From an uncultured Alcanivorax sp. (GTDB lineage: Bacteria; Pseudomonadota; Gammaproteobacteria; Pseudomonadales; Alcanivoracaceae): DNA of 64,000 nucleotides. The stretch spans positions 310,001 through 374,000 of the forward strand of contig NZ_CAMYIV010000012.1 of the NCBI RefSeq assembly GCF_947258575.1. The letters run 5' to 3'. Of this stretch, positions 1,264 to 60,750 are shown one piece after another. Position numbers and translations under genes: made by a program. Below the pieces are notes generated by a model. That model was not told the DNA's origin, ran no database searches, and was given only the letters and a program-made list of their open reading frames with translations. Each line of letters opens with the position of its first letter. The first letter of the stretch is position 1.

Positions 1264-2322
1264 ATGCGTGTATTGGGTATTGAATCAAGCTGTGACGAGA
1301 CCGGGGTTGCCATTTATGACACCGATGCCGGTCTGCTGGGGCAGGCCCTGTACAGTCAGGTGGAGATGCATGCCCGCTTTGGCGGCGTGGTGCCGGAACT
1401 GGCCAGCCGCGATCATGTGCAGCGGGTGCTGCCCCTTGTGAAACAGGTGATGGCGGAGGCTGATACCACTGCGGAGCAGCTGGATGGCATTGCCTATACC
1501 GCGGGCCCGGGTTTGGCCGGGGCGCTGCTGGTGGGAGCTGGCGTGGCCCGGGCGCTGGCCTTTGGTTGGGGGATCCCTGCCGTGGAAGTGCACCATATGG
1601 AAGGCCACCTGCTGGCACCGCTGCTGGAGCCGAATGCGCCGGCCTTTCCCTTTGTGGCCCTGCTGGTCAGTGGCGGCCATACCCTGTTGCTGGAAGCCCG
1701 CTCCCTGGGCGATTACGCCATTCTCGGTGAATCCGTGGATGACGCCGCTGGTGAGGCCTTTGACAAAGCCGCCAAGATGATGGGGCTGGGCTATCCTGGC
1801 GGCCCGCGTATTGCCGCCCTGGCGGAGCAAGGGACACCGGGGCGGTTCCGCTTCCCCCGGCCAATGACGGACCGCCCTGGTCTGAACATGAGCTTTTCCG
1901 GTCTGAAGACCTTTACGCTCAACACCATCAACGATCTGGGCGGCAAGGACGCCCTCAGCGAGCAGGACCAGGCAGATATCGCCCTGGCGTTCCAAGAAGC
2001 GTCGGTGGATACGCTGGTCATCAAGTGTCGTCGGGCGGTGGAGCAGACCGGGGACAAGCGGTTGGTGATGGCCGGTGGTGTCAGTGCCAACCGTGCCTTG
2101 CGGGCCAAGCTGGCCGAGCAAATGAACAAGCGTGGCGTCGAGGTGTTCTACCCCGCGCCCCAGTATTGCACCGACAACGGCGCCATGATCGCCTTTGCTG
2201 GCGCTCTGCGCCTGCAGGCCGGGGAACGCGCGGAGTTGCCCATCAAGGTTCGCCCGCGCTGGCCGCTGACGGAGCTGGAGAAGCTGCAAGCTTCAAGCTG
2301 CAAGCTGCAAGGCGCGGACTAA
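1264..2322 (+). CDS. tsaD: tRNA N6-adenosine threonylcarbamoyltransferase TsaD
   Basis: TsaD transfers the threonylcarbamoyl group to A37 of ANN-decoding tRNAs together with TsaB and TsaE. The sequence has the conserved start ([19 protein letters not shown]), the metal-binding HHMEGH motif and the CTDNGAMIA segment. The start is set at 1264, not an in-frame ATG at 1207, because the family begins with this [10 protein letters not shown] segment and AGGGGTGAG lies just before it. The product is 352 residues. The last dozen codons (ending [11 protein letters not shown]) are encoded by a heptad repeat array at 2281-2317, so the C-terminal tail is a repeat-derived extension. Confidence 0.97.
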
Positions 2323-2438
2323 GTCGGGTTGGCTCTCAAAAGCTCTGCCCGCGCTCCTGGGGTGGTGCGCGGGTAGCGTGTCTCAGAAATTACCAGGGCC
2401 TGTCGCGTTGTAGCTTGTAGCTTGAGGCTTGCAGCTCA
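2281..2438. repeat. Heptad inverted-repeat element A
   Basis: Left arm 2281-2317 is a run of 7-base units such as AAGCTGC and AAGCTTC ending in GGCGCGG. The right arm 2404-2438 is the inverted form (units TAGCTTG) starting with CGCG. Between them is a hairpin, CCCGCGC at 2348-2354 with GCGCGGG at 2367-2373. The left arm codes the TsaD tail and the right arm ends on the plsY stop codon. The whole sits between convergent genes and may act as a bidirectional terminator. Confidence 0.85.
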
Positions 2439-3050
2439 GTCCTTCTTCCGGAACCCCAGTTCTTCCCCGCGCAGCAGTTTTTGCAGGTTGCTGCGATGGC
2501 GCAGGATCATGACCAGTGACAGTGCCACCATGGGCCAGAAGGCCTGGGGCAGCCAGGCGAAGATGCAGGCCGGGGCGACCACGAAGGCGCTCAACGAGGC
2601 CAGGGAAGAAATGCGGGTGAGGGCGAAGACCAGCAGCCAGACGACACCCGCCACCAGGCCGCTGGGCCAGTGCAGGGCAAACAACAGACCGAAGGCCGTG
2701 GCTACACCCTTGCCGCCCTGGAAGTGGAAAAACACCGGAAACAGATGGCCGAGAAAGGCAAAGGTGCCCACCAGTGCGGCCACGAACGGGCCCATGCCCA
2801 GGTAGTGGGCTATCACTACCGGGATCACCCCTTTGAGTACGTCGCCCAGCAGCGTCAGCGCCGCAGCGGGCTTGCCGCCGATACGCAGCACATTGGTGGC
2901 GCCCGGGTTGTTGGAGCCCTCGGTGCGCGGGTCCGGATAGCCGAACAACCGGCACACCAGAATCGCACTGGAAATGGAGCCCATCAGATAGCCGGCCACG
3001 CACAATGGCAGCAGCCAATACCACACATCCTGTAATGTCCCTGCTTGCAC
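2436..3050 (-). CDS. plsY: Acyl-phosphate:glycerol-3-phosphate acyltransferase PlsY
   Basis: PlsY is the inner-membrane enzyme that makes lysophosphatidic acid from acyl-phosphate and glycerol-3-phosphate, the first step of phospholipid synthesis with PlsX. The 204-residue protein is hydrophobic with about five membrane segments and carries the cytosolic motifs GSNNPGATNVLR, a GD motif in LLGDVLKG, and HFQGGKGVATAFG. It is divergent from folB and convergent with tsaD; its TGA stop abuts the right arm of a heptad repeat. Confidence 0.96.
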   Translation of the reverse strand: MQAGTLQDVWYWLLPLCVAGYLMGSISSAILVCRLFGYPDPRTEGSNNPGATNVLRIGGKPAAALTLLGDVLKGVIPVVIAHYLGMGPFVAALVGTFAFLGHLFPVFFHFQGGKGVATAFGLLFALHWPSGLVAGVVWLLVFALTRISSLASLSAFVVAPACIFAWLPQAFWPMVALSLVMILRHRSNLQKLLRGEELGFRKKD

Positions 3051-3054
3051 CGGC

Positions 3055-3060
3055 TATAAT
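3055..3060 (+). promoter_or_regulatory. Candidate -10 box for folB-folK
   Basis: A perfect TATAAT lies in the plsY/folB divergent gap, with TTGCAC directly upstream but too close for a standard -35, so it may be an extended or activator-dependent promoter. It would give a leader of about 160 bases before folB. Confidence 0.45.
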
Positions 3061-7777: not shown

Positions 7778-7807
7778 TGTTTTTGGAAAGGTGGCAGGTC
7801 GTTAATC

Positions 7808-7990
7808 AGTTGCAAGTTGAAAGTTCAAAGTTGAAAAGCGCGGGAAAGGCAGCTGCTAATCATTGACCTCCTCAGCCCCGCCGTAAAGGGAAAGAGTGTG
7901 GAGCATGGTTTTCTCGCTTTGCGGCGCGGCTGAGGAGGTTGTCGGTTGGCACCAGCACCTGCCGCGCCTTTCAACTTTGAACTTTCAACT
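7808..7990. repeat. Heptad inverted-repeat element B
   Basis: Left arm 7808-7843 has units such as AGTTGAA ending AAGCGCG. The right arm 7962-7990 is its inverse (units TTCAACT). An inner palindrome, CCTCCTCAGCC near 7867 with GGCTGAGGAGG near 7929, forms the core. It ends about a dozen bases before the ribosome-binding site of the EamA gene. Confidence 0.85.
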
Positions 7991-8014
7991 TGCTCCTCAA
8001 CCAAGGAGAACGAC

Positions 8015-8932
8015 ATGCCAACCCTGGCAGCGTATTTGATCGTAGTGGCGGTGTGGGCAACCACGCCGTTGGGGATTAAATGGAGTGGTGATGCCATGGC
8101 ACCGCTGGCGGCAGCTGGCGTGCGTATGGCCATTGCTGCGCTGCTGGGTTTGCTGTGGTTGTGCTGGAAGCGTCAGAGCCTGCCGCTGCATGGTCGCGCT
8201 GTGCTCAGTTATACCGTTGCCTTGCCGGGTATTTTTGGGGCCATGGCGTGTAGCTACATGGCGGCCACACATCTGCCTTCCGGTCTGATTTCGGTGATTT
8301 TCGGTCTGGCCCCATTACTCTCCGGCCTGATGATGCAATCTTTGCCTGGCAGCGTGCGACTGAATGGCTGGCACTGGAGCGCCTGCCTGCTGGGTTTGTT
8401 CGGCTTGGCGCTGGTGTTTGACGAAAACCTGGCGGGCCTGCTGGCCGGCGCGGACCTGGGTGAGCGTGGTACCGGGCTGTTGTGGATGTTGTCTGCGGTG
8501 ACCCTGTTTGCCGGGGGCGGCATTGCCGTGCAGCGGGTGGGCGCCGGTCTGCAGCCCATGCAACAGACCGTCGGCGGCCTGATATTGTCATTGCCGTGCT
8601 ACGCAGTGGCCATGCTCATTGCTGGCCAGTCGTTTGCCTTTAGCGGCGACCTGCGTGGGCTGTCCGCCATTATCTACCTGGCCGTGTTTGGCTCTCTGCT
8701 GGGTTTTTATTGTTATTTCCAGATCCTGTCACGGCTGCCTGCCGCCACGGTGGCGTTGGTCACACTGATTACACCCGTGTTGGCGCTGGCGCTGGGCAAT
8801 CTGCTCAATGGCGAGAGCCTGGGCAGTATGGTGCTGATCGGTGCCGGGGTGATTGTGCTGGCGCTGTCCCTGTTTGTGTTGGGGGATCATCAGGTAAGGC
8901 GGCAGCTCAAGCGGTTTCAAGTGGAAAGTTGA
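8015..8932 (+). CDS. EamA/DMT family transporter
   Basis: The 305-residue protein is almost wholly hydrophobic with about ten membrane helices in two repeats, as in drug/metabolite transporters of the EamA family. Characteristic pieces are VWATTPLGIKW near the start and LITPVLALALGNLLNGE in the second half. The start at 8015 is preceded by AAGGAGAACGAC; an in-frame start at 7946 was rejected because it would be coded by repeat sequence. The last residues (QVES) and the stop lie in a heptad array. Substrate unknown. Confidence 0.88.
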   Translation: MPTLAAYLIVVAVWATTPLGIKWSGDAMAPLAAAGVRMAIAALLGLLWLCWKRQSLPLHGRAVLSYTVALPGIFGAMACSYMAATHLPSGLISVIFGLAPLLSGLMMQSLPGSVRLNGWHWSACLLGLFGLALVFDENLAGLLAGADLGERGTGLLWMLSAVTLFAGGGIAVQRVGAGLQPMQQTVGGLILSLPCYAVAMLIAGQSFAFSGDLRGLSAIIYLAVFGSLLGFYCYFQILSRLPAATVALVTLITPVLALALGNLLNGESLGSMVLIGAGVIVLALSLFVLGDHQVRRQLKRFQVES

Positions 8933-8946
8933 AAGTGGTAACGCGG
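8919..8946. repeat. Heptad array C (single arm)
   Basis: Four 7-base units (AAGTGGA, AAGTTGA and relatives) end in ACGCGG. The EamA stop codon lies inside the second unit. No inverted partner was found before the next gene; a different palindrome follows instead. Confidence 0.7.
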
Positions 8947-8983
8947 CTCGAACGTTTGTGGACGTTATGAGGAGGCGGCATTT

Positions 8984-9063
8984 GTAGGGTGCACTGAGCC
9001 CAAGCGAACTGCACCGCTGCGGCCCCGGGTTGGTGCAGTTCGCTTGGGCTCAGTGCACCCTAC
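8984..9063. repeat. GTAGGGTGCACTGAGCC palindrome, copy 1
   Basis: Arms 8984-9015 and 9032-9063 are a perfect 32-base inverted repeat around a 16-base GC-rich loop. A second copy is at 24290-24370. It lies between convergent EamA and SpoVR genes and could terminate transcription from both, although no T run follows. Confidence 0.9.
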
Positions 9064-9135
9064 ACATTCTGGTTGTTACGCGTTTCTCTGATGGCTGCGA
9101 CCTTTGCCGTTCAGTCTTGCGGCACAGGCTATTGG

Positions 9136-16459: not shown

Positions 16460-17460
16460 GTGGCGGCAAGCTCCAGAGCGAGTCGGGTGGCGGCGATCAG
16501 GCTGCCGGCCTTGGCCTGGCCGGTGCCGGCCAGATCGAAGGCGGTGCCATGGTCCACGGAAGTGCGGATAAAGGGCAGCCCCAGGGTGATATTGATGGCT
16601 TCGCCAAAGCCGGCGTACTTGAGCACCGGCAGGCCCTGGTCGTGGTACATGGCCAGCACCGCATCGTGCTGCGCCAGCAGGTCCGGCTGAAAGGCCGTAT
16701 CCGCCGGCACCGGGCCGGTGAGCGCCATGCCCTGATCGCGCAGGGCGTCCAGGGTGGGGATGATCACATCCAGTTCTTCGCGGCCCAGGTGGCCGCCTTC
16801 GCCGGCATGGGGGTTAAGCCCCAGCACCAGAATGCGCGGCGCCTCAATGCGGTACTTGCCGATCAGGTCGTCGCGCAGAATGGTCAGGGTGCGGGTCAGG
16901 CTGTCTGCCGTTACCGCCCGTGACACCTGACTGAGCGGCAGATGGGTGGTGACCAGGGCCACCCGCAGTTCGCGGGCGGTGAGCATCATCACTACCTGGT
17001 CCACCCCGGCCTGTTCGGCGAGAAACTCGGTATGGCCGGTAAAGGCCGGGTCGGCGCCCTCACAGATCACGTTTTTGGCCACAGGAGCGGTCACCATGGC
17101 GGCAAAGGTGCCATCCAGGCAGCCCTGTGCCGCGCGGCTGAGCATGGTGAGGGTGCCGCTGGCGGTGGCCGGATCGGGCTGCCCGGCGGTCACCGACGAC
17201 CCGGCCGGGGTGTGCCACACCGGCAGGGTGCCCGGTGTCAGCGGTTGCCCTGGCTGCCAGTCGGAGAGCGTAATGGCCAGGTCGAGTTGCCTGGCTCGCT
17301 GGGTAAGGACGTCGCGATCAGCGATGACAACAAGCCGGGCGTCCGGGAAGGATGCCGGCAGGGTCAGTACCAGATCAGGGCCGATGCCTGCGGGATCCCC
17401 GCAGGTGATGGCGATGGGACGTTCTGGCGTCAGACGTCCGACGTCAGACGTCAGACTCAT
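16456..17460 (-). CDS. pdxA: 4-hydroxythreonine-4-phosphate dehydrogenase
   Basis: PdxA oxidises 4-phosphohydroxy-L-threonine in pyridoxal phosphate synthesis. The 334-residue protein has ITCGDPAGIGPDL at its start, the TGHTEFLAE zinc/substrate segment and YHDQGLPVLKY. The first ten residues (MSLTSDVGRL) are encoded by a heptad array, while the family normally begins close to RPIAIT, so the N-terminus is repeat-extended. The ATG overlaps the surA stop. A start nearer the conserved part is possible but no ATG is there. Confidence 0.95.
   Translation of the reverse strand: MSLTSDVGRLTPERPIAITCGDPAGIGPDLVLTLPASFPDARLVVIADRDVLTQRARQLDLAITLSDWQPGQPLTPGTLPVWHTPAGSSVTAGQPDPATASGTLTMLSRAAQGCLDGTFAAMVTAPVAKNVICEGADPAFTGHTEFLAEQAGVDQVVMMLTARELRVALVTTHLPLSQVSRAVTADSLTRTLTILRDDLIGKYRIEAPRILVLGLNPHAGEGGHLGREELDVIIPTLDALRDQGMALTGPVPADTAFQPDLLAQHDAVLAMYHDQGLPVLKYAGFGEAINITLGLPFIRTSVDHGTAFDLAGTGQAKAGSLIAATRLALELAAT
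17428..17455. repeat. Heptad array D in the pdxA start
   Basis: Four units (CGTCAGA three times, CGTCCGA once) in perfect 7-base register occupy the first codons of pdxA. No inverted partner is close; the next array, at 18742, has a different unit. Confidence 0.8.
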
Positions 17461-18785
17461 AAGCGAATATCCACGTAGGATTCGCTGCGCTGCTCTTGCA
17501 GCCAGGTTTCCAGCTCTTCCTCGAAACGGCGCTTCTGCAGGGCCTGGGTGGCCTGCATGCGACGGAATTCTTCGCTCATGTCCGCGTCGCGGGTGTCGTC
17601 CACGCGCAGGAAGTGAAAGCCGAACTGGCTTTCGAACACCGGCGACAGCTCGCCCACCGGGGTGTTGAGCATCATGTCCTCGAATTCCGGCACCATCTCG
17701 CCCTGGGTGATCCAGCCCAGCTCGCCACCGTTACGGGCACTACCCGGATCGTCGGAATGCTCCGCTGCCACGGCGGCAAACGCTTGCTGGCCAGAGGCAA
17801 TGCTGTCGTGCAGGCGCATGGCTTCTGAGCGAGCCTCCTGGGGGCTGGTCAATGCATCGGCCTTGATCAGTACGTGACGGACCTGGTACTGGGTGACCAC
17901 TTTTTCGATGCCGCCCTTGCGGTCCATCATCTTGATGATATGGAAGCCGGCCCCGGAGCGTAGCGGCTGGGAAATCTCGCCCTTGTTCATGTCGATGGCG
18001 GTTTCTGCGAACAGGCTGGGCCATTGGGCCGCCGGGCGCCAACCCAGGTCACCGCCTTCCAGGGCCTTGGGGCCGTCGGATTCCGACGTGGCCAGCTGCT
18101 GGAAGTCACTGCCCTGCTTCAGGCGTTCCACGATGCTCTCGGCTTTCTGTTTGGCGTCCTGGACTTGCTCCGGGCTGGCGCCGGCGGGTAGCCGCACCAG
18201 AATATGGCCAAGACGGAAGTCGGCTTCGAACATCTTCTTGCCCATTTCCGAATTCAGGAAACGGTCCACTTCCCGGTCGGTGATGCGAATGCGCGAGGCA
18301 ACGCTGCGTTGTTGAAGGCGGGAAATCAGCATGTCCTGGCGGATCTGCTCACGGAACTGGGCCCAGTCGTAACCGTCCTGGCGCAGGGCGGCGGCGAAAT
18401 CTTCCAGGGTCATGCCGTTCTGGCGGGCAATGCCGGCCAGTGCCTGATTGAGGGTGGCGTCGTCGACCTTGATGCCGCCCCGGTCGGCCAGTTGCAGCTG
18501 CATGCGCTCAAGGATCATGCGGTCGAGCACCTGCTCACGCATCACCGCCGGGGGCGGCAGTGGCTGGCCCTTTTCCTGGAATTGCAGGGCAATGGTGTTG
18601 ATGCGCTCGTCCAGCTCGCTGGCCATGATGGCGCCGTCGTTGACCACGGCCACGATGCGGTCGAGCATCTGCACCTTGGCGTGGGACCAGGCCGGCAACA
18701 TCAGCACGGCCATGGCCAGCAGGCCAAGCAGGGTGTGTCTGGCGTGCAGCGTGCGTCGTGCAGCGTGCAGCGTTCTATCAATCAT
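17457..18785 (-). CDS. surA: Periplasmic chaperone / peptidyl-prolyl isomerase SurA
   Basis: SurA escorts outer-membrane proteins through the periplasm. The start at 18785 gives a 442-residue protein with a signal peptide (TLLGLLAMAVLMLPAWSHA) followed by the SurA N domain (LDRIVAVVNDGAIMASELDE) and two parvulin domains (for example FRLGHILVRLP and QYQVRHVLIK). The basic n-region of the signal peptide (RTLHAARRTLHARH) is encoded by a heptad array at 18742-18776. A longer in-frame start at 18917 was rejected because it lies in lptD. It overlaps lptD by 8 bases. Confidence 0.96.
   Translation of the reverse strand: MIDRTLHAARRTLHARHTLLGLLAMAVLMLPAWSHAKVQMLDRIVAVVNDGAIMASELDERINTIALQFQEKGQPLPPPAVMREQVLDRMILERMQLQLADRGGIKVDDATLNQALAGIARQNGMTLEDFAAALRQDGYDWAQFREQIRQDMLISRLQQRSVASRIRITDREVDRFLNSEMGKKMFEADFRLGHILVRLPAGASPEQVQDAKQKAESIVERLKQGSDFQQLATSESDGPKALEGGDLGWRPAAQWPSLFAETAIDMNKGEISQPLRSGAGFHIIKMMDRKGGIEKVVTQYQVRHVLIKADALTSPQEARSEAMRLHDSIASGQQAFAAVAAEHSDDPGSARNGGELGWITQGEMVPEFEDMMLNTPVGELSPVFESQFGFHFLRVDDTRDADMSEEFRRMQATQALQKRRFEEELETWLQEQRSESYVDIRL
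18742..18776. repeat. Heptad array E in the surA start
   Basis: Units GCGTGCA, GCGTGCG and TCGTGCA in 7-base register end just before the surA ATG and the lptD stop. The array encodes the basic front of the SurA signal peptide. Confidence 0.8.
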
Positions 18786-24724: not shown

Positions 24725-24728
24725 TGTC

Positions 24729-27791: not shown

Positions 27792-28901
27792 ATGAGTGGT
27801 TCCCTGGACAGTCTGCTGCGCCCTTTTGCGCACAAATCCCTGAACCTGCGTAACCGGGTGGCCATGGCCCCCATGACCCGCACCTTCTCGCCGGGCTATG
27901 TGCCCAATGACGAGGTGGTGGGTTACTACCGCCGTCGGGCGGAAGGCGAGGTGGGCCTGATCATCACCGAGGGCACCTTTGTGGGCCACAAGGCGGCCAA
28001 CGGCTATGAGCGGGTGCCGGCGATCTACGGTGATGTGGCCATGGCGGGCTGGAAGAAGGTGGTGGATGCGGTCCACGAGGCCGGTGGCCAGATTATCCCG
28101 CAGCTCTGGCACGTGGGCTCGGTGCGCAAGCCCGGGATTGGTCCGGACAAGGACGTGCCCGGGCATTCGCCGTCCGGCCTGTTCAAGCCGGGCAAGGAAA
28201 ATGGCCACGCCATGACCCATGAGGACATCCAGGACGTGGTGCAGGCGTTTGCTGACTCCGCCAGGGCCGCCAAAGCGGTGGGCTTTGACGGGGTAGAGAT
28301 TCATGGTGCCCACGGCTATCTGCTGGACCAGTTCTTCTGGGAAGGCACCAACCAGCGCGATGACGAGTACGGTGGCTCCATCGAGAACCGCGCCCGCTTC
28401 GGCGTGGAGATCGTCAAGGCGGTCCGTGAAGCGGTAGGTGAGGAGTTCGCCATTGTGCTGCGCTTTTCCCAATGGAAGCAGCAGGATTACGACGCCAAGC
28501 TGGCCCAGAATCCGGAAGAGCTGGAACGCTTCCTGATGCCGTTCGTGGACGCCGGCGTGGATATTTTCCATGCGTCTACCCGTCGTTTCTGGCTGCCGGA
28601 GTTCGAGGGTTCCGACCTGAACCTGGCCGGCTGGACCAAGAAGATTACCGGGAAGCCCACCATTTCTGTGGGTAGCGTGGGGCTGGATGGGGATTTCCTG
28701 AACAGCCCGGAAGGCATGGGCGGCACCGCCAACCCGGCGGCGCTGGATGAGCTGACCCGACGCATGGACAACGACGAGTTCGACATGATTGCGGTGGGCC
28801 GGGCGCTGCTGCAGGACCCGAACTGGCTGCTGAAGGTGAAGGAAGGGCGTGAGGAAGAGATCGCGCCGTTTACCAAGAAAGCGTTGGGGAGCTTGAGTTA
28901 A
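27792..28901 (+). CDS. NADH:flavin oxidoreductase (old yellow enzyme family)
   Basis: The 369-residue FMN TIM barrel has NRVAMAPMTRTFS near the start, the active-site HGAHGYLLDQFF, NQRDDEYGGSIENR and the phosphate-binding VGRALLQDPNW. Such ene-reductases reduce activated C=C bonds, often in electrophile detoxification. Histidine in the fourth position (HxxH) resembles the 2,4-dienoyl-CoA/YqjM side of the family. GGGAGAGTAAC precedes the start. Regulation by the divergent HxlR protein is inferred from the operator. Confidence 0.92.
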   Translation: MSGSLDSLLRPFAHKSLNLRNRVAMAPMTRTFSPGYVPNDEVVGYYRRRAEGEVGLIITEGTFVGHKAANGYERVPAIYGDVAMAGWKKVVDAVHEAGGQIIPQLWHVGSVRKPGIGPDKDVPGHSPSGLFKPGKENGHAMTHEDIQDVVQAFADSARAAKAVGFDGVEIHGAHGYLLDQFFWEGTNQRDDEYGGSIENRARFGVEIVKAVREAVGEEFAIVLRFSQWKQQDYDAKLAQNPEELERFLMPFVDAGVDIFHASTRRFWLPEFEGSDLNLAGWTKKITGKPTISVGSVGLDGDFLNSPEGMGGTANPAALDELTRRMDNDEFDMIAVGRALLQDPNWLLKVKEGREEEIAPFTKKALGSLS

Positions 28902-28902
28902 G

Positions 28903-28936
28903 AGCTACAAGCTACAAGCTACAAGCTGCAACGCGG
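28903..28936. repeat. Heptad array F (single arm)
   Basis: Units AGCTACA (three) and AGCTGCA (one) end in ACGCGG just after the oxidoreductase stop. No inverted heptad partner is present; a terminator hairpin and a TAGGAGC palindrome follow. Confidence 0.8.
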
Positions 28937-28961
28937 ATCCGGGTTTGTCGGGTCTGATAGG

Positions 28962-30495: not shown

Positions 30496-30522
30496 GTTGT
30501 GCGCTCGAATTTCGTGTTGGGG

Positions 30523-30674
30523 AGTTGCAAGCTACAAGCTTCAAGCTGCAAGGCGCGGTGATGGCTTCGCGGCTCTGCTCGGCCGTGCCCGCGTATTGCC
30601 CTAGGCGCGGGCACAGAATTGCTACACCGAATCAGTCTGATCGCGTTGCAGCTTGAAGCTTGTAGCTTGTAGCT
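30523..30674. repeat. Heptad inverted-repeat element G
   Basis: Left arm 30523-30558 (units AGTTGCA, AGCTACA, AGCTTCA) ends GGCGCGG. Right arm 30642-30674 is the inverse (units TGCAGCT, TGTAGCT). The core hairpin is GTGCCCGCG 30585-30593 with CGCGGGCAC 30606-30614. It lies in the divergent gap between the MFS gene and cyoA, so it is not simply a 3' terminator. Confidence 0.85.
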
Positions 30675-30779
30675 CATTCCCCTAGCACTTTAAGGCCATG
30701 GGACAAAATGTCCAATACCCGCTTCCCATTGCCTTGGCTAGAGTTCCCCTATCCCATAAGCCAACCAGAATAGCCGCCA

Positions 30780-39155: not shown

Positions 39156-39509
39156 GGGGCTCCTGGATTGACGCCGGACGCTGGATGCCAAGTATAGATC
39201 GAGGCGCCAGTTTAGCAGTTTCCTCCGGGTTTTCAGCGTCTGGGGTAGCGCGTCTGGCGTCCGGCGTTCTCATTAGCTAGAATTCCCCCAATCTTCACGT
39301 TTGAGAAAGGACGTCCCCCTTGGACCGTGCCCTGATCAACAGCTTTGCCTTCCTCTCCGCACCCGCCAGCTGGCGATGGTGACGCTCCCTCTGTGCCGGT
39401 GTTGAACGCTTGCACGGACACGCCCTTTTTGCCTTGTTTTTCCTCTACAATTGTTGCACTTGTCGGCCTGTGCGTTTGAATGGCCGAGCGAAGACCAATA
39501 GGGACAACC
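39156..39509. other. Divergent gap between the MOSC gene and trpE
   Basis: About 354 bases. It contains the heptad element at 39169-39269 and an AT-rich segment near 39425-39455 (TACAAT near 39450) that may be the trpE promoter. No Trp-rich leader peptide or attenuator was found. Confidence 0.5.
39169..39269. repeat. Heptad inverted-repeat element H
   Basis: Left arm 39169-39189 has units TGACGCC, GGACGCT, GGATGCC. Right arm 39235-39269 has the inverse register (units AGCGTCT, CGCGTCT, GGCGTCC). Unit sequence differs from the other elements but the 7-base period is kept. Confidence 0.75.
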
Positions 39510-42659: not shown

Positions 42660-43454
42660 ATGAGCACAGGCACCATTCTCGACAAGATCATTGCGCGCAA
42701 GCAGGAAGAAATTGCGGTCGGCAAGAACAACTACACCCTGGGTGAGCTGGAGGCCATGGCCGCCAACGAGCGCAAGGCCAGAGGGTTCATTTCCAGCCTG
42801 TTCGACCGGGTGCGTGACCACCAACCGGCAGTGATCGCCGAAATCAAGAAAGCCTCTCCCAGCAAGGGCGTGATCCGGGACGATTTCGACCCGGTGGAGA
42901 TTGCCCGCAGCTACGAGAAAAACGGCGCGGCCTGTCTGTCGGTACTCACCGACAAGGACTTCTTTCAGGGTGACGAGCATTACCTGCGTGCGGCGCGCAA
43001 CGCGGTCAATCTGCCGGTGCTGCGCAAGGACTTCATGATCGACCCCTGGCAGATCTTCGAGTCCCGGGCCATGGGTGCCGACGCCATTCTGCTGATCGCG
43101 GCGGCCTTGTCGGATGAGCAGATGAACGAACTCTACCACGCCGCCCAGCAGGCTGGCTGCGATGTGCTGGTGGAAGTGCATACCGAGGAAGAGCTGGAGC
43201 GGGCGGTGAATCTCAACGCCGAGCTGATCGGCATCAACAACCGCAACCTGCATACCTTCGAGACCAGCCTGAACACCACCCTGACGCTGGCGGAAAAGGT
43301 CCCCGGCGACCGTATGATTGTCACCGAAAGCGGTATCCACACCTCGGAAGACGTGAAGCTGATGCGCAAGAACGGCATCAATGCGTTCCTGGTGGGCGAG
43401 GCCTTTATGCGGGCGGAGGATCCGGGGGCGGCGCTGAAGGCGCTGTTTTTTTAG
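42660..43454 (+). CDS. trpC: Indole-3-glycerol phosphate synthase
   Basis: TrpC closes the indole ring. The 264-residue TIM barrel has [46 protein letters not shown] and [10 protein letters not shown], the usual catalytic Lys and Glu residues. It is monofunctional, with no TrpF fusion. AGGAGAGCGGTT precedes the ATG. The TAG stop is overlapped by a heptad array that starts at 43453. Confidence 0.97.
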
Positions 43455-43490
43455 TTAACAGTTAATAGTGAATAGTTAATAGCTGCGCGG
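43453..43490. repeat. Heptad array I (single arm)
   Basis: Units AGTTAAC, AGTTAAT, AGTGAAT end in CTGCGCGG. The trpC stop lies in the first unit. No inverted partner is seen before the chorismate mutase gene, only the hairpin that usually forms the core. Confidence 0.8.
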
Positions 43491-43516
43491 GGAAGGTTGG
43501 TGCCGCGCAGAGAATG

Positions 43517-43555
43517 TTTGAGGCCGCGCCCATGAAGTGGGGGCGGCTTCGTTCG
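43517..43555 (+). terminator. Hairpin after trpC
   Basis: AGGCCGCGCCCA at 43521-43532 pairs imperfectly with TGGGGGCGGCTT near 43538-43549. It lacks a long T run, so termination of the trp transcript may be partial. Confidence 0.5.
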
Positions 43556-43581
43556 TTTTAATGCGAAAACAGGGAGTTTGA

Positions 43582-43881
43582 ATGACAGGAAAGTCACCAG
43601 AGGAATGTCTTGGCATGGAGGACATCCGTGCCGAAATCGACTGTCGCGACAGGCAAATCATTGCACTTCTGGGCGAAAGGGCCGGGTATGTCCATGCTGC
43701 CGCAGCGTTCAAAACCAGCGAAGACGGTGTGCGTGCGCCGGCGCGTTTCAAAGCCATGCTAGAAACACGGCGCGACTGGGCGGAGCAGGAAGGGCTGGAT
43801 GCGGATATGGTCGAGAAGCTTTACCGTGATCTGGTGGAGCACTTTATCCAGCGGGAGATGGCAGCGTTCAAGAGTAGTTAA
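43582..43881 (+). CDS. Chorismate mutase (AroQ type II domain)
   Basis: The 99-residue all-helical protein has DIRAEIDCRDRQIIALLGER, a Lys (FKTSED), ARFKAMLETRRDWAEQEGLD and DLVEHFIQREMAAF, the stand-alone AroQ/PchB pattern. It could convert chorismate to prephenate or, like PchB, cleave isochorismate; the former is more likely next to trp genes with no pch cluster seen. The stop and the last serines are coded within a heptad array. Confidence 0.82.
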   Translation: MTGKSPEECLGMEDIRAEIDCRDRQIIALLGERAGYVHAAAAFKTSEDGVRAPARFKAMLETRRDWAEQEGLDADMVEKLYRDLVEHFIQREMAAFKSS

Positions 43882-44044
43882 CAGTTAATAGTGAACAGTT
43901 AACAGCGCCGCGGACCAGGTTGTTCTGTCGTTAAACGCAAGAGGCCGCGCCCATCATCTGGGCGCGGCCTCTTTGCTTTCAGTCACTCATGCGCTGAACG
44001 CGCAGCTGTTAACTGTTCACTATTAACTATTAACTATTAACTGC
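43876..44044. repeat. Heptad inverted-repeat element J
   Basis: Left arm 43876-43913 (units AGTTAAC, AGTTAAT, AGTGAAC, ending GCCGCGG) and right arm 44001-44044 (units GTTAACT, GTTCACT, ATTAACT). A terminator hairpin lies between. The chorismate mutase stop is inside the left arm; the vfr stop is just beyond the right arm. Confidence 0.9.
43939..43975. terminator. Bidirectional terminator in element J
   Basis: AGAGGCCGCGCCCA pairs perfectly with TGGGCGCGGCCTCT, followed by TTT and preceded by A residues. It serves convergent chorismate mutase and vfr genes. Confidence 0.85.
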
Positions 44045-44047
44045 TTT

Positions 44048-44677
44048 TTACCGCGTTCCGTAAACCACCATCGTCTTACCCTTAACAGACACCAGCCCCT
44101 GTTCTTCCAGGTTCTTCAGTACCCGGCCGACCATTTCCCGGGAGCAGCCGACGATGCGGCCGATTTCCTGGCGGGTTACCTTGATCTGCATACCGTCCGG
44201 GTGGGTCATGGCGTCGGGCTGCTTGCACAGGTCCAGCAGGGTGCCGGCCACGCGGCCAGTCACATCCAGGAAGGCCAGATCCCCTACCTTGCGAGTAGTG
44301 GCGCGCAGGCGACCGGCGATCTGGGCGGAGACGGCGAACAGGATGTCGGCGTCTTCCCGGGCCAGTTGCTTGAATTTGCCGTAGCTGACTTCGGCGACTT
44401 CGCACTCAGTCTTTGCCTTTACCCAGGCGGAGCGTGACGGGTCGTTCTCGAACAACCCCATTTCACCGAAGAAATCCCCTTCATTCAGGTACGCCATGAT
44501 CATTTCGCGACCATCGTCGTCTTCGATCATGACTGTCACGGAGCCCTTCAAAATATAGTAAAGCGCATCCGATTCATCACCCGCATAAATGATGGTGCTC
44601 TTCGCCGGGTACTTGCGGCGATGGCAGTGGGCCAGAAACTGGTCCAGATTTGGAATAATTTTGTTGCCGTCAGTCAT
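44048..44677 (-). CDS. vfr: cAMP-activated global regulator Vfr/Crp
   Basis: The 209-residue protein has a cyclic-nucleotide domain with the phosphate-binding cassette [18 protein letters not shown], and a C-terminal winged helix ([20 protein letters not shown], starting KVTRQEIG). It matches Vfr of Pseudomonas and E. coli CRP in length and motifs. Binding of cAMP and class I/II promoter activation are known for the family. It lies between the trp block and an OsmC gene as in P. aeruginosa. Confidence 0.95.
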
Positions 44678-44977
44678 GGGTGCTCAATATTAAGCCAGAA
44701 AAATGTCTTAGCTGGTAAGCGTAAGGATATTGCCTGTTTTTATCATTGATGCCAAGGGAACTGGCTCTCACTCTCAATTTTCACAGGCTAAACGGTGCCT
44801 TACGGCTGACCGGCACCGGCTCGGGAGAGCCCTGGAAGGCCTGCCCGGTGGCAAAATTATCTGCCATCCGGGGCTGTCAGGGGGGTGGCGGCGCCCCCGC
44901 GCTATGGTACTCTGCGCCCCCTTTCGGGGCTGGATAGAAGCAGCCTGGAGCGGTGACTGGAACCTGGGAGATCCCCC
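44678..44977. other. Divergent gap between vfr and the OsmC gene
   Basis: About 300 bases without a gene. TATGGTACT near 44903, followed by GCGCCCC, looks like a -10 box for the OsmC gene; no clear -35 was found. GC content is high on that side. Confidence 0.4.
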
Positions 44978-45403
44978 ATGAAAGCAGTGGTTAAATGGCA
45001 GGGCGAAGCCTGCTATGAAGCGCAGACAGAAAGCGGCCATACGGTGCTCATGGATGGTCCGCCGGATCACGGTGGTCAGAACCGGGGACCGCGTCCCATG
45101 GAGACCCTGTTGCTGGGTGTCGGCGGTTGCTCCTCCTTTGATGTGGTGCATATCCTCAAGAAGTCCCGCCAAGACGTGACGGACTGTCGCTGTGAGCTGA
45201 CCGCGGAGCGTGCCGATGAGGTGCCGGCGGTATTCAGCAAGATTCATCTGCACTTCATCGTCAGCGGTAATAACCTGAAAGAAACCCAGGTGAAGCGGGC
45301 GGTGGAGCTGTCGGCGGAGAAATATTGCTCGGCCAGCATTATGCTGACCCGAGGTGGTGTTGAGATCACCCATAGTTATACCATTGAGGGTCAGGAAGCT
45401 TGA
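44978..45403 (+). CDS. OsmC family protein
   Basis: The 141-residue protein is an OsmC/Ohr-fold member of the YhfA-like type: MDGPPDHGGQNRGPRPMETL, LLLGVGGCSSFDVVHILKKS and KYCSASIMLTRGG. Two cysteines (in GGCSS and KYCSAS) stand where the peroxidase pair of OsmC lies, so peroxide reduction is possible. It lies beside vfr and speD, an order recalled from Pseudomonas. Confidence 0.9.
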   Translation: MKAVVKWQGEACYEAQTESGHTVLMDGPPDHGGQNRGPRPMETLLLGVGGCSSFDVVHILKKSRQDVTDCRCELTAERADEVPAVFSKIHLHFIVSGNNLKETQVKRAVELSAEKYCSASIMLTRGGVEITHSYTIEGQEA

Positions 45404-45534
45404 TTCCTGCCCGGTCAACGGTCCGGCGCAAGCCGGAGGCAAGCTGAGGCCCTGAGGTCTCGCAAACAGGTAGCCGCAGAGTCTGCGGTGGTGTGTTGGT
45501 TTTATTGTGGCGATGACGCCTACGGGGTACAGCT

Positions 45535-46341
45535 GTGGTGAAAGATCCCAATCCCAAGATTACGGTTCATGGTTTCAACAACCTGACCAAATCCTTGAGC
45601 TTCAATATTTTCGATATCGCCTATGCGAAGACGGAACAGCATCGCAAGGAGTACATCGAGTATATTGACGAGCTGTATAATGCCGAGCGTCTCACCGAGA
45701 TTCTCACCAACGTGACCAAGATCATCGGCGCCAACGTGCTCAACGTGGCTCGCCAGGATTACGATCCCCAGGGCGCCAGCGTGACCATGCTGATTGCCGA
45801 GCATGAGAGTCCGCCGGATGGCACTGACTGGGATGAAGAAGCGCCTGGCCCGCTGCCGGACTCCGTGGTGGCGCATCTGGACAAGAGCCATGTAACGGTG
45901 CACACCTACCCGGAATCCCACCCGGATAACGGTATCTCCACCTTCCGGGTGGACGTGGATGTGTCCACCTGTGGGGTGATTTCACCGCTGCGGGCGCTGA
46001 ATTACCTGATCCACAGCTTCGATTCCGATATCGTCACTGTCGACTACCGGGTGCGGGGCATGACCCGGGATCTGGATGGCACCAAGCACTACATTGATCA
46101 CGACATCAATTCGATCCAGAACTTCCTCACCGAAGACACCCAGAACGCCTATCAGATGATCGACGTGAATGTGTTCCAGGAGAACATCTTCCACACCAAG
46201 ATGCTGCTCAAGGACTTCGACATCGACAACTATCTGTTCGGCGCTGGCAGCGACGAATTCGAGAAGGAAGAACTGGAGCAGATCGAGGAGCGCCTGCGCA
46301 CCGAGATGCTGGAGATCTTCTACAGCCGGAATATGGGCTGA
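45535..46341 (+). CDS. speD: S-adenosylmethionine decarboxylase proenzyme
   Basis: SpeD makes the aminopropyl donor for spermidine. The 268-residue protein is the long, E. coli-type form; self-cleavage before Ser 118 ([13 protein letters not shown]) makes the pyruvoyl cofactor, and [20 protein letters not shown] carries the catalytic Cys. Start codons are two GTGs in a row (45535, 45538), preceded by CGGGGTACAGCT. A weak start may limit expression. Confidence 0.95.
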
Positions 46342-46346
46342 AGGGC

Positions 46347-46508
46347 AGTTGACAGTTGATAGTGGACAGTTGAAAGCTGCGCGTTAGAGCTTATCGCTAT
46401 CCGGAAACGTAAGAGGCCGCGCCCAACACTTGGGCGCGGCCTCTTTGCTTTAATCAACTACCAACTTTTTCCGTGACGCTGTCAACTGTCCACTATCAAC
46501 TGTCAACT
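46347..46508. repeat. Heptad inverted-repeat element K
   Basis: Left arm 46347-46383 (units AGTTGAC, AGTTGAT, AGTGGAC, ending CTGCGCG) and right arm about 46477-46508 (units GTCAACT, GTCCACT, ATCAACT). The right arm runs into the coq7 stop codon (46508-46510). Same plan as element J but T-A changed to G-C at matching places in both arms. Confidence 0.9.
46411..46446. terminator. Bidirectional terminator in element K
   Basis: AGAGGCCGCGCCCA and TGGGCGCGGCCTCT form a perfect stem with a short loop and TTT after it; almost identical to the hairpin at 43939-43975. It serves convergent speD and coq7. Confidence 0.85.
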
Positions 46509-47167
46509 CAGATCCTGTAGGTCGTAAACGTCATCACCTTGCTCATCAGTGTCATGGCGTGGCGCACTGGCGGGGGCAGGTCTGCGCCGCCGGCGTCTTT
46601 GGCGGTGACGGCGTGTTTGAGTTCGTCACTTTTCATCTGTTCCAGAATGGCGCGGGTACGCAGGTCGCTTTCCGGGACCTGGAACAGGTGGGCTTCCAGA
46701 TGTTTGACCACCTGATTCTCCGTTTCCGATACAAAGCCCAGGCTCCAGCGGTCGCCGACCAGGCCGGCCGTGGCGCCGACCGCATAGCTCATGGCATAGA
46801 ACAGCGGGTTAAGCTTGCTGGGTACACCGCCGAGCTCCTGAATGCGCTCCTCGCACCAGGCCAGGTGATCCTCTTCCTCACGGGCGGCTTCCTCCATGGC
46901 ATGGCGCACATGGGGCAGGCTGGCGGTGCTGGCCTGGCCCTGATACAGCGCCTGGGCGCACACTTCACCGGTATGATTGATACGCATCAACCCCAGCACA
47001 TGGCGGCGCTTATCGGTGGGCAGATTCCCGGCTTCCGGGCTATCCGGCGCCGCAGACGCATGGGCAGGTGCTCGCTCCGCCTGGATGGTGCCCGGCGTCA
47101 GTGTACGCAGGGCGTTATCGGCCCGGGCCAGCAGTTTGTCCAGCGGTGACAGTCGACGTTCGCTCAT
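46508..47167 (-). CDS. coq7: 2-nonaprenyl-3-methyl-6-methoxy-1,4-benzoquinol hydroxylase
   Basis: Coq7 is the di-iron hydroxylase for the penultimate step of ubiquinone synthesis. The start at 47167 gives 219 residues with the two repeated ligand motifs [16 protein letters not shown] and [13 protein letters not shown], and a C-terminal [15 protein letters not shown]. An earlier in-frame start at 47200 is less likely. Its stop codon touches a heptad array. Confidence 0.95.
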
Positions 47168-47319: not shown

Positions 47320-48795
47320 ATGAGTGACTTGAACGACCTGAAAATGCTGCTGGAATCCCGCTATCCCATCGTGGTCATCGAGACCTGGGAGGAATTGCGG
47401 GCGCTGGATCTGATTCGCCGGTTGGGGATGCGTGAGGGCCGGCCGGTGTTCGCCTGGAACGGGGTGGATGGCCTGCGCCGGCTGGAATTCGAGGACGCCC
47501 CCAGCCAGAAGCACACGGTGGAGCCTGACGCGGTGCTCGGGCAGATTCGTGGCACCAATGAACCGGGCATCTACGCCCTGTGTGATCTGCATCCTTATCT
47601 GGAGGGTGAGCCCAAACAGGTGCGCCTGCTCAAGGAAATCGCCCTCCATCATGAGCGCCTGCACCACACCCTGGTGTTGATCAGCCACCAGTTTTCCATT
47701 CCCCCGGAAATCCGCCGTTACTGCACCCGCTTTTCCCTGTCCATGCCGGACGAGAAGCAGCTGGAGCATATCGTTCAGGACGAGGCTCGTCGTTTCAAAC
47801 AGGAGAAAGGGGAACGGGTGCGCGCGGATCGGAACTCACTCGATCGACTGGTGCGCAACCTGCGCGGCCTGAGCGTGGAAGATGCCCGCAAGCTGGCTCG
47901 GGGTGCCATTATCCACGACGGCGCTATTACCGAGGCGGACCTGCCGGAGATCAACAAGGCCAAGTTTGCCCTGATGGAAATGGACGGCGTGCTCAGCTAT
48001 GAGTACGACACGGAAAGCTTTGCCGACGTGGGCGGTCTGCAGGGGCTGAAAGACTGGTTGGGCAAACGCGAGAAAGCCTTTCACGGGCAAAGCGATATCG
48101 ACAGCCCCCGCGGCATCATGATGGTAGGGGTGCAGGGTGGCGGCAAGAGCCTGGCCGCCAAGGCGGTGGCCGGGTTGTGGGGGCTGCCGCTGCTGCGCAT
48201 GGACATGGGCGCCATCTATAACAAGTTCTTCGGTGAATCCGAACGCAACGTGCGCGAGGCGCTGGAGTTGGCCGAGACCATGTCTCCCTGTGTGCTGTGG
48301 ATCGATGAAATCGAAAAGGGCATCGCCGTGGGCGACAACGATGGCGGCACCTCCCGGCGCGTACTCGGAACCCTGCTTACCTGGATGGCGGAGAACCAGA
48401 GCCAGGTGTTCCTGGTGGCCACGGCCAACGACATCGAGCGCCTGCCACCGGAGCTGATCCGCAAGGGACGCCTGGACGAAATCTTCTTTGTGGATCTGCC
48501 ATCGCCGGCGGTGCGCGAGGTGATTTTCCGTATCCACCTGGAAAAACGCGGCCAGGCAAGCGAGCGGTTCGATCTGCCCACCCTGTCGGCGCACAGCGAC
48601 GGGTTTACCGGGGCGGAAATCGAACAGGCCGTGGTGGCCGGACTCTACAGCGCCGGCGCCGCCGATGGCGTGCTGGACCAGGCGCTGCTGGAAGCGGAGT
48701 TGGCGGCCACCGTGCCGCTGTCGGTGACCATGGCGGAATCCCTGGCGCGGCTGCGCCAGTGGTGCCAGGGCAGGGCGGTTCATGCCGGTACTTGA
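47320..48795 (+). CDS. AAA+ ATPase, Ycf46-like
   Basis: The 491-residue protein has an N-terminal domain (about residues 1-220) of the Ycf46 type, then one AAA+ module: Walker A GVQGGGKSLAAK near residue 271, Walker B VLWIDEIEKG, sensor ATANDIERLP and the arginine finger area IRKGRLDE. Ycf46 proteins are poorly known; a link to carbon uptake was reported in cyanobacteria. It overlaps the AraC gene by 14 bases, suggesting joint expression. Confidence 0.85.
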   Translation: MSDLNDLKMLLESRYPIVVIETWEELRALDLIRRLGMREGRPVFAWNGVDGLRRLEFEDAPSQKHTVEPDAVLGQIRGTNEPGIYALCDLHPYLEGEPKQVRLLKEIALHHERLHHTLVLISHQFSIPPEIRRYCTRFSLSMPDEKQLEHIVQDEARRFKQEKGERVRADRNSLDRLVRNLRGLSVEDARKLARGAIIHDGAITEADLPEINKAKFALMEMDGVLSYEYDTESFADVGGLQGLKDWLGKREKAFHGQSDIDSPRGIMMVGVQGGGKSLAAKAVAGLWGLPLLRMDMGAIYNKFFGESERNVREALELAETMSPCVLWIDEIEKGIAVGDNDGGTSRRVLGTLLTWMAENQSQVFLVATANDIERLPPELIRKGRLDEIFFVDLPSPAVREVIFRIHLEKRGQASERFDLPTLSAHSDGFTGAEIEQAVVAGLYSAGAADGVLDQALLEAELAATVPLSVTMAESLARLRQWCQGRAVHAGT

Positions 48796-57041: not shown

Positions 57042-58078
57042 GCGGCCAAGGCTCCGTTTTTCTTCCGGGCAGACACCTCGCCATAACAACCGAATCGTAC
57101 CCGGTCGGTCGTGGCGTTTATCTGTTGGAAAAACTGCTCGATTGCCAGCCGTTGATCGGCGGCATTTTCCAGTGTGTTAAATCCGCGCCGGAAGTCTTCC
57201 CCTCCGGGCAGGTTTTGCGTATACCAGCCCAGATGCTTGCGTGCGATACGCACTCCCATGAACTCTCCGTAGAACTGGTGGAGTTCGGCGAGGTGCTGTT
57301 GCACACAATCGTGGACTTCCGTTACGAACGGCGCTGCGGGTAGCGAGCCGTGCTCGAGGTAATGCAGGGTATCCCGGAAGATCCACGGGTTCCCCTGTGC
57401 AGCGCGGCCGATCATGATACCACCCGCGCCGGTGGATTCCAGTACCCGTTTAGCTTTTTCCGGGCTATCCACGTCACCGTTAGCCATAACCGGAATATTC
57501 ACCGCGGCCACCACCTGGGCGATGGAGGCGTACTCGGCGTCACCGTTGAACTTGTCGGCACGGGTGCGGCCATGGATGGCCAGGGCCTGAATGCCCGCCG
57601 CTTCCGCGATACGGGCGATCTCCAACGCATTGCGATGGTCGCGATCGGGCCCGGTTCGAATCTTCAGGGTCACCGGGACGTCCACGGCAGCGACGACGGC
57701 ATCCAGGATGCGGGCCACCAGGTCCGGGTCAGCCAGCAGGGCAGAGCCTGCGGCGCGTTTGCACACTTTCTTTGCCGGGCAGCCCATATTGATATCAATG
57801 ATCTGGGCGCCATGATCCACATTGGCGCGGGCCGCATCGGCCAGCATTGTCGGCTCGCCGCCGGCAATCTGTACCGACACCGGGCCGGGTTCACCACTGT
57901 GATCAAGCCGTTGGCGTGACTTTCGAGAGTTCCACAGACGGGTGTCCGAGGTCACCATTTCCGATACCAGCAGACCTGCGCCCAGATCCCGGCACAAACG
58001 CCGGAAAGGGCGATCCGTGACGCCGGCCATGGGGGCCAGAATCAGCGAATTGGGCAAGGTATATGGGCCGATCTGCAT
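57038..58078 (-). CDS. dusB: tRNA-dihydrouridine synthase B
   Basis: DusB reduces uridines in the tRNA D-loop with FMN. The 346-residue protein starts [26 protein letters not shown] (first part shown), with [20 protein letters not shown] carrying the catalytic Cys, and [13 protein letters not shown] and [11 protein letters not shown]. It is the leading gene of dusB-fis. A 230-base gap to the next gene (58079-58308) has no gene and probably holds the promoter, which in E. coli drives growth-phase Fis control. Confidence 0.96.
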
Positions 58079-59511: not shown

Positions 59512-59690
59512 GGCTTTCGCCTGATTGTTATTGGACGAGACGCAACACGCTACACGCACCGGGCTTTCACGGAACACTTTACGCAGCCCTGGAATCCAGA
59601 AAACGCGTGCAGATGAGTCAGGTATGTTTTACAGAAAAAGCAGGACAGGCCGCAAGGACCTGTCACTCAGTTTTACCTGAATCAATGAAT

Positions 59691-60572
59691 TCAGGTGTTA
59701 CGGCGCACCCCGTCAATTCGCACCCAGTCGCCCTGTTGGGTGGTGGGGTTCAGGTCGAACCAGGGGGCATAGGCGCTGCGTACCGATTCTGCCTGCTCGG
59801 CAAGAATGCCGGACAGGGCAAGGCTGGCCCCGGCGCGACAATAACCGGCAAGCTGGTCGGCCAGTTCCACCAGGGGGCCGGCCAGGATATTGGCGACCAG
59901 TACATCACAGCGGTAATCCGCCGGCAGATTTTCCGGCAGGTAGAGGCTGAGCCCGTCGGCCACACCGTTATTGCGGGCATTATCCTCGCTGGCGGTGAGT
60001 GCCTGGGGGTCGATGTCGGTGCCGGTGGCATTGCCGGCGCCCAGCAGCAGGGCAGCAATGGCCAGCACCCCGGAGCCACAGCCGAAATCCAGCACCGTCT
60101 TGCCGTGCAGGTCGGCCCGATCCAGCCATTCCAGGCACAATGCCGTGGTTTCGTGGGTGCCGGTGCCGAAGGCCAGCCCCGGGTCCAACTTCAGGTTCAC
60201 TGCCTGCGGATCCGGTGACTCGCTCCAGCTGGGGACGATCCACAGCCGTTCGCCAAAGCGCATGGGGGCGAAGTCATCCATCCAGGCCCGTTCCCAGACC
60301 TGGTCATCCAGTGTTTCGTGGTGGTGTGCCTGGGCGTCCAGCCCCTGTTGTTGCAGGGCGGCGAGGATCAATGCCGGGTCACGGTCCGCATCGAACAGGG
60401 CGCTGACCACGATGTTTTGCCACAGCGGGCGGGCACCGGGAGGCGGTTCAAACACCGGCTGATCGGCGCCATCAGTCAGGGTGACCGCACAAGCTCCCAT
60501 ATCTTCCAGTGCGGACTGAAAGGCATCGGCGTGGGCTTCGGTGGTGGCAAGGTGTAGCTGGAGCCAGGCCAT
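59691..60572 (-). CDS. prmA: Ribosomal protein L11 methyltransferase
   Basis: PrmA trimethylates L11. The 293-residue protein has an N-terminal L11-recognition domain ([20 protein letters not shown]) and a methyltransferase core with [36 protein letters not shown] and [16 protein letters not shown]. Note that the substrate domain and linker ([20 protein letters not shown]) are both intact. It follows accC across a heptad element. Confidence 0.96.
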
Positions 60573-60588
60573 GTTGTCGCTTCGCTCT

Positions 60589-60750
60589 AGTTAATAGTGA
60601 ACAGTTAACAGTGAATAGCTGCGCGAGAGATGCGGTCGTTATTCAGAACGCATGAGGCCGCGCACAGGGTATGGGCGCGGCCTCAGGGGGTAATATAACA
60701 GCTAACGGTGAACGCGAGCTATTCACTGTTCATTGTTAACTATTCACTGC
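60589..60750. repeat. Heptad inverted-repeat element L
   Basis: Left arm 60589-60625 (units AGTTAAT, AGTGAAC, ending CTGCGCG) and right arm 60713-60750 (units ATTCACT, GTTCATT, GTTAACT). The accC stop codon (60740-60742) and last residues are inside the right arm. It lies inside a leftward operon, so the enclosed hairpin may cut accC from prmA expression. Confidence 0.88.
60651..60687. terminator. Hairpin in element L
   Basis: TGAGGCCGCGC 60653-60663 pairs with GCGCGGCCTCA 60675-60685. No T run follows on the plus strand; on the minus strand the bases after the stem are not T-rich, so it is a weaker terminator than those in elements J and K. Confidence 0.6.

Follow-up and report, generated by a model that had tools for sequence, protein, structure and literature searches.

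Gene boundaries in a 64-kb stretch of DNA (the window; contig NZ_CAMYIV010000012.1, positions 310,001 to 374,000) from an uncultured member of Alcanivorax, a marine genus that is not pathogenic, carry short arrays of 7-base units (heptads), several of which face an inverted partner. This raises the question of whether each such element has a unit of its own, with two arms that evolve together at that locus, as the initial annotation of twelve of these arrays had proposed, or belongs to a type that recurs elsewhere. We addressed it in the source genome (3.5 Mb, 13 contigs) and in a comparison set of 16 congeners; the TsaD protein encoded in the window is 84 to 89% identical to that of five Alcanivorax records. 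We find that locus-specific co-evolution of the arms is largely an effect of element types, and we favor, with moderate confidence, the reading that the arrays are the inward-pointing ends of several parallel families of dispersed, noncoding elements resembling miniature inverted-repeat transposable elements (MITEs), of which one family, type A, would act as a bidirectional terminator.

Counting as an array any tract with at least 16 of 21 matches at a lag of 7 bases, we observe 15 period-7 arrays in the window, where three Markov shuffles gave 0, 0, and 1. A sample of twenty further 20-kb stretches from this genome (400 kb) yielded 27, against 0 in one Markov shuffle. Within those 400 kb, periods 8, 10, 11, and 13 gave no arrays, period 9 gave 7 (2 after shuffling), and period 14, a harmonic of 7, gave 11. 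The ten congeners sampled (678 kb) showed 142 arrays of period 7, 3 of period 8, and 17 each of periods 6 and 9. The over-representation of period 7 that the initial annotation had made a test of its proposal is present in all three samples; it is not due to chance and is both specific and genome-wide. In 605 kb around tsaD from 70 loci taken, on the basis of record names, as outside Alcanivoracaceae, we found 6 arrays of period 7 and 33, 28, and 43 of the codon-related periods 6, 9, and 12, and since period 7 is scarce in these loci, heptad abundance is lineage specific.

A catalogue built from 864 kb of the source genome holds 90 arrays and 43 paired elements, and the addition of ten congener regions brings the totals to 314 arrays and 109 pairs. 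The arrays fall into about ten unit types, set by eye from the array lists, with 25 of the 314 arrays fitting none: A (AGTKAAY), A2 (AGTKGAY), E (AATKRAY), B (AAGTTNM), C (AAGCYNC), D (CGAGNNN), F (CACGCNN), G (GACGTCN), H (GAYGCCN), and I (KAGCTNC). The 43 paired elements of the source genome comprise 18 of type A, 2 of A2, 9 of B, 9 of C, 2 of D, 1 of E, and 2 unassigned, and the type A pattern has 133 forward and 119 reverse matches genome-wide (overlapping matches counted). Within a genome, copies of one type taken from different loci can be aligned over 173 to 237 bases at 64 to 82% identity in the best 40 of 468 hits, under permissive scoring that lets some alignments extend into the flanks. 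The idea that units match their own locus and no other is therefore wrong, as the types recur at many loci, and the companion claim that period and plan are conserved across divergent sequences stands, with about ten unit types sharing one layout.

With respect to the likeness of the arms, scores across the 109 elements average 20.59 within a locus and 7.95 between any loci, so that arms are indeed more alike within than between loci, as had been claimed. When the comparison is restricted to the same type (105 elements), the within-locus score of 20.71 stands against 18.87 between loci, with none of 2,000 permutations reaching the within-locus value; types D, F, G, and H taken singly show no clear excess (89, 712, 533, and 519 of 2,000 permutations). 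The two arms of a pair agree in type in 103 of 107 cases against 16.6 expected by chance (2 of the 109 untyped and dropped). Catalogue pairs were picked by arm likeness, and both the within-locus excess and the type concordance are biased upward by this. Two sets are free of that bias. Consecutive typed arrays 20 to 260 bp apart, chosen by distance, are same-type and inward in 63 cases, different-type and inward in 4 (2 of them A with E), tandem in 5, and outward in none. The 26 type A-like pairs found by a unit-pattern search have an arm identity of 0.87 versus 0.81 shuffled (1 of 2,000 permutations). Unit positions 1, 3, and 6 are set by the search pattern itself, which also restricts positions 2, 4, 5, and 7, so that invariance there is no evidence in this set. 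Position 5 (A or G) is identical between arms in all 26 pairs, and position 7 (C or T) shows a weak relation. At position 4 (T or G), no relation between the two arms is seen (0.54, 0.50, and 0.58 against 0.54, 0.52, and 0.53). Position 4 thus varies independently in the two arms, and within-locus arm likeness is mostly type membership.

Orthologous sites lead to the same picture. The same gene ends carry A, A2, E, B, C, or D arrays, or no heptad array, in different congeners, so the comparison of orthologous loci that had been put forward as a check shows one site holding different types in different species. A sense array stands beside the stop codon of the crp-like gene in 14 of 16 loci, our own included (one of the others has a single unit and one has none; a 17th genome gave no match to the gene), and these arrays are of type A, A2, E, or mixed. 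The COQ7-like gene has an array in 12 of 17 loci, and the tsaD-plsY site is occupied, depending on the species, by an element of type C, B, or D or by other repeats, or has 11 bases between the stop codons (G004, counted by eye). Arms and spacers at such sites were compared for arrays with exactly four units (25 of 31 retained). Where spacers are alike (identity of at least 0.7), arms average 0.92 and spacers 0.85, over 12 nonindependent pairs in which the arm is the higher in 8; where spacers are unlike, arm identity is 0.749 (80 pairs) versus 0.764 between different sites (208 pairs). Arms with unlike spacers are thus no closer than arms from different sites, which matches whole-element replacement. 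The crp and COQ7 sites of G011 lie about 2.5 kb from each other and have an arm (1.00) and a spacer (0.87) in common, which points to copying between loci. Turnover of type at a site between species would reflect new insertion or exchange between elements.

Other repeats were also seen. Inverted repeats resembling GTAGGAGCGTCGCTGGCGGCGCGAT occupy the same intergenic sites as heptad elements of other species (e.g., G005 67480-67684 and G016 66552-66729 in the joined regions, and the tsaD-plsY site of L114, L115, and L121), and we take them to resemble Pseudomonas REPs. Species-specific insertions of about 265 to 275 bp with inverted ends (G008 47459-47730, G016 8072-8348, and G003 57775-58041) are probably other MITEs.

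A first alternative is local template copying, whereby one arm would be copied from the other through fold-back or quasipalindrome correction, with no mobile family involved. We regard it as unlikely. It would account for the small same-type excess of arm likeness, for the full concordance of position 5 in A, A2, and E units, and for perfect copies of an arm, such as the 31-base arm found on both sides of the COQ7 locus of G001 and again of G004, or a facing pair of 28 bases, of an unrelated unit, seen by eye in a gammaproteobacterial metagenome-assembled genome (L039). It does not account for the lack of relation at position 4 or for the recurrence of the same types at many loci, and copying alone fails for the G001 and G004 COQ7 site, where all four arms are common and the spacers differ. 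In the distant genome G276, furthermore, long AGTGAAT-type and GGTGAAA-type arrays face each other across a short center, and two elements in opposite orientation show, by eye, that each unit keeps to its end of the element and not to its locus. Because position 4 is unrelated and the G276 units keep to their ends, arm-to-arm copying is not required, and inheritance of whole element types with limited exchange accounts for most of the arm likeness.

Under the reading of parallel MITE-like families, each family has its own heptad and each end is a short inward-facing array, usually of about four units. The MITE-like features found are a short noncoding element, terminal inverted repeats, and many copies. 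Type A is the commonest family, its elements running from an arm through a GCG-rich step and a spacer to a central hairpin (typically GAGGCCGCGCCCA-loop-TGGGCGCGGCCTC) and from there through a second spacer and GCG-rich step to the other arm. The claim that arms end inside in GCGCGG holds in the form of GCG-rich inner ends in types A, B, and C, and such ends are absent in D. The inner spacing is 97 to 101 in 14 of the 26 type A-like pairs, orthologues included, and type A arrays with at least three exact units have four units in 24 of 34 cases in our own sample and in 30 of 37 in congeners. The type A element at 43876 folds far better than shuffled sequences both as RNA and as DNA (z of about −13), as does the type C element at 2281 as RNA (z = −9.2). 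A consensus fold of 18 aligned A/A2 elements has 34 pairs, 11 of which have changes on both sides, and two hairpin pairs show two-sided change in 7 and 3 of the 18 sequences, as expected of a hairpin maintained by compensatory change; arm position 4 is left unpaired.

Placement relative to genes sets type A apart. Of 19 A and A2 elements, 12 are flanked by convergent genes, an arrangement found in 87 of 489 neighboring gene pairs (P = 9 × 10−6; genes called with a simple open reading frame [ORF] scorer in array-bearing stretches only). Among 49 A-like arrays, the outer end coincides with a gene 3′ end in 38 and with a 5′ end in 4, and in many type A cases the predicted stop codon lies inside the first units. 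Ordinary bidirectional intrinsic terminators have a GC hairpin without heptad arms of 28 to 35 bp; type A resembles them in having its GC hairpin at 3′ ends. T-rich tails on both sides were counted in 9 of 18 type A elements and 1 of 2 A2 elements (under a loose rule, without shuffled control). Elements of A, with its variants A2 and E, are about 160 bp long and close gene 3′ ends. We suggest that such an element, with a central GC hairpin that often seems to have T-rich flanks on both strands, most likely provides convergent genes with a common terminator for both directions and a common mRNA 3′ end. Type A arms supply stops in two to three frames, so that insertion at a gene end would be tolerated.

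Several observations weigh against this reading. Covariation contributes little to the consensus fold (a term of −0.61), and a strict terminator scan of 43000 to 47000 gave 2 sites versus 3.5 in shuffles, with neither of the two central hairpins there listed. The inner hairpins of B and C are weaker and seldom flanked by T-rich stretches, B, C, and D are mostly without T-rich tails, and convergent gaps hold no excess of B and C (3 of 18), so that the terminator role does not extend to B, C, and D. Stop-codon insurance as a general rule, examined as inward frames closed by arms against shuffled arms, was rejected, since it can apply to some types only: the number of closed frames exceeds that of shuffled arms in A, A2, E, G, and H, equals it in B, and falls below it in C, D, and F. 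As for mobility, no clean heptad insertion with a target-site duplication was seen by eye among 138 congener alignment gaps, which mostly hold other repeat families. Same-type inward arrays 700 to 2,500 bp apart, as expected around an autonomous parent, number 4 against 11 outward in a sample of about 1.54 Mb, giving no excess and no sign of such a parent (the ORFs between the 4 inward pairs were not searched). Mobilization by a RAYT was also rejected: the genome has two Y1_Tnp (Y1-transposase-like) matches, one below cutoff, and neither locus (3.2 to 3.3 kb each) contains heptad arrays.

We also note a second inverted repeat family, GTAGGGTGC...GAACTGCACC, at about 8982-9065 and 24290-24370 of the window and at about 1255-1345 and 1930-1980 of L110, where, by eye, copies lie on either side of the Y1-transposase-like match. 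GGTGCAGTTCGC has five matches in the window versus 0.6 expected. This family, and not the heptads, may be the terminal inverted repeat (TIR) type moved by that Y1 enzyme.

A further alternative is that the heptads are arrays of binding sites for a protein that reads DNA or RNA sequence, the inverted pair serving as an operator or processing signal. The ribbon-helix-helix omega repressor binds heptads, unit positions 1, 3, and 6 show no variation across 18 aligned A/A2 elements in the two inner units of the left arm, and orthologous arms exceed their adjoining spacers in identity, in the 12 nonindependent pairs given above. Against this, position 4 is free, and about ten units would need about ten readers or one reader of the period alone, which makes the explanation distinctly unlikely.

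It is very doubtful that the arrays are products of polymerase slippage (7 nucleotides having been cited as a polymerase footprint for heptamer simple sequence repeats, and heptamers being in excess in many bacteria, in the available sections of PMC4692102 and PMC4679880), paired only because gene ends face each other, for although long expansions occur here and A-like arms lie in sense at gene 3′ ends, the 43 paired elements occupy 19 codirectional and 6 divergent gene gaps besides 17 convergent ones, types recur at many loci, the inner spacing is 97 to 101 in 14 of the 26 type A-like pairs, and type A avoids rather than favors identical neighbors.

This avoidance (7 of 99 adjacent type A units identical versus 15.9 in within-array shuffles in our own genome, and 9 of 104 versus 20.5 in congeners) may give slippage a different role among the MITE-like families. 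Arrays would stay short and uneven because identical neighboring units slip and expand, and the long near-perfect expansions would be in keeping with a loss of short perfect arrays through slippage. Such expansions, of about 11 to 17 units, occur at L026 8171-8293, L142 11673-11750, and L150 3377-3474, and are perhaps hypervariable between strains. Counting against a general rule, the avoidance is clear in A only, weak in B, and absent within arrays of C and D.

Within the window, 10 of the twelve arrays listed in the initial annotation pass the lag-7 test, one (8919) was found by Tandem Repeats Finder only, and one (39169) by eye only. The six inverted partners are genuine, with elements at 2282-2436, 7812-7993, 30522-30675, 43875-44036, 46347-46508, and 60589-60748 in the pair catalogue. 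The first, a type C (AAGCTNC) element at 2278..2437 between convergent tsaD and plsY, has its arms at about 2281-2311 and 2404-2436; the tsaD frame continues through the left arm, and the C-terminal tail of TsaD is encoded by the array. A type B (AAGTTNA) element (7805..7997) and a second type C element (30520..30680) each lie between divergent genes. The type A (AGTTAAC/AGTGAAT) element at 43876..44036 stands between a small forward ORF and the crp-like gene, in convergent arrangement, and the type A2 (AGTTGAC) element at 46347..46508 is convergent with the COQ7-like gene; their terminator-like central hairpins (43941..43971 and 46413..46443, respectively) are those missing from the strict scan. 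Another type A element (60589..60748, terminator-like central hairpin at 60654..60684) lies downstream of the biotin carboxylase gene. Two unpaired forward-strand arrays occupy 3′ ends, one that of the IGPS (trpC-like) gene (type A, 43448..43485) and the other that of a forward ORF (type C, 28893..28937), together with a weak type B-like forward array under the lag-7 threshold (8919..8938) and a weak type H-like (GACGCCN) array at 39169..39268 with a possible inverted partner at about 39247-39268. No match in the window exceeded an Rfam gathering score.

The arrays are not all intergenic. Those at 17428 and 18742 are in or at N-terminal codons on the reverse strand: a GC-rich type G (GACGTCN) array (17422..17460) takes up the first codons of pdxA directly after the surA stop, and a GC-rich type F-like (CACGCNN) array (18741..18777) takes up those of surA directly after the lptD stop, the surA start codon being assigned by eye. 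As these arrays encode the first residues of PdxA and, with that start, SurA, evolution of the elements would write protein N termini.

Among 369 genomes of the class, the exact type C pattern occurs in 3 and the exact type A pattern in 5, our own genome included in both. Two of the other matching genomes, G315 and G276, were sampled further. In G315, from another family of the class, AAGCTNC pairs face each other about 7 to 95 bases apart, mostly with about four units per arm; G315 and G276 yielded 14 arrays each, counts biased by some stretches having been chosen at known matches. In G152, the reversed control of the type A pattern matches 21 and 39 times, a sign of abundant heptads of another unit.

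The closest published case, judging from the available sections of the articles compared, is the GGGNATC heptameric repeat of Xanthomonas (Rehm et al. 2015, PMC4692102), for which two genomes carry 186 and 183 arrays, with 70 and 75 instances of one array facing another, a mostly intergenic position nearer the preceding ORF (mean 28 nucleotides), sequence and length that differ between related species, and a link to G-quadruplex formation. The Alcanivorax arrays share its 7-nucleotide unit with fixed and free positions, its array size of mostly four units, and its facing pairs (67 inward, 5 tandem, and 0 outward at 20 to 260 bp). Whereas the Xanthomonas repeat is described with one G-rich unit, Alcanivorax has about ten units, no GGG tracts, and a central hairpin in type A; AGTTAAC, AAGTTNA, AAGCTNC, and CGAGTNN contain no GGG tract and thus lack the basis for G-quadruplexes. 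Because the Alcanivorax units are not G-rich, the G-quadruplex link cannot be general. The heptanucleotide repeats of Calothrix are presumably those named STRR in heterocystous cyanobacteria. Three different tandem heptanucleotides are cited for one Calothrix genome (in PMC4692102), so that several units share a genome as here; the passage available does not mention a facing-pair plan.

For Beggiatoaceae, the available text of MacGregor (2015, PMC4679880) describes dispersed intergenic arrays of two to six TAACTGA units whose forward repeats close each of the three frames with a stop codon. On the opposite strand, TAACTGA reads one base away from CAGTTAA, the unit of type A; the Beggiatoaceae repeat differs in having a single unit, a position mostly upstream of start codons, and direct repeats with one inverted case. 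Finally, MITEs and the TIR repeats of TIRtrons, which the sections seen of Di Nocera et al. (2013, PMC3733652) describe as TIR families belonging to tyrosine transposases, resemble the Alcanivorax elements in being 70 to 300 bp long, noncoding, hairpin forming, and near genes, with inverted ends of 15 to 30 bp. The Alcanivorax ends differ in being tandem heptad arrays, and no heptad-flanked transposase gene was found. In the open-licence literature, no paper contained any of six unit strings, none combined Alcanivorax, tandem repeats, and 7 bp, and the portions examined describe no genome in which several heptad families follow a common facing-pair plan.

With 17 of the 43 elements in convergent gaps and 87 convergent gene pairs counted in the sampled array-bearing stretches, these families would shape many gene 3′ ends in this genome. 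They also bear on why bacteria over-represent 7-nucleotide tandem repeats, for which slippage and, in Xanthomonas, G-quadruplexes are the causes cited in the sources as available. About ten heptad families without G tracts follow one facing plan in one genus, indicating that the plan is separable from the sequence, and this sharing across families with different words suggests that the plan matters more than the word. It is a tentative possibility that period and plan, independently of the unit, are recognized or produced by some cellular machine; if so, the unrelated unit families of Alcanivorax, Xanthomonas, and other bacteria would form one class that does not depend on G-quadruplexes.

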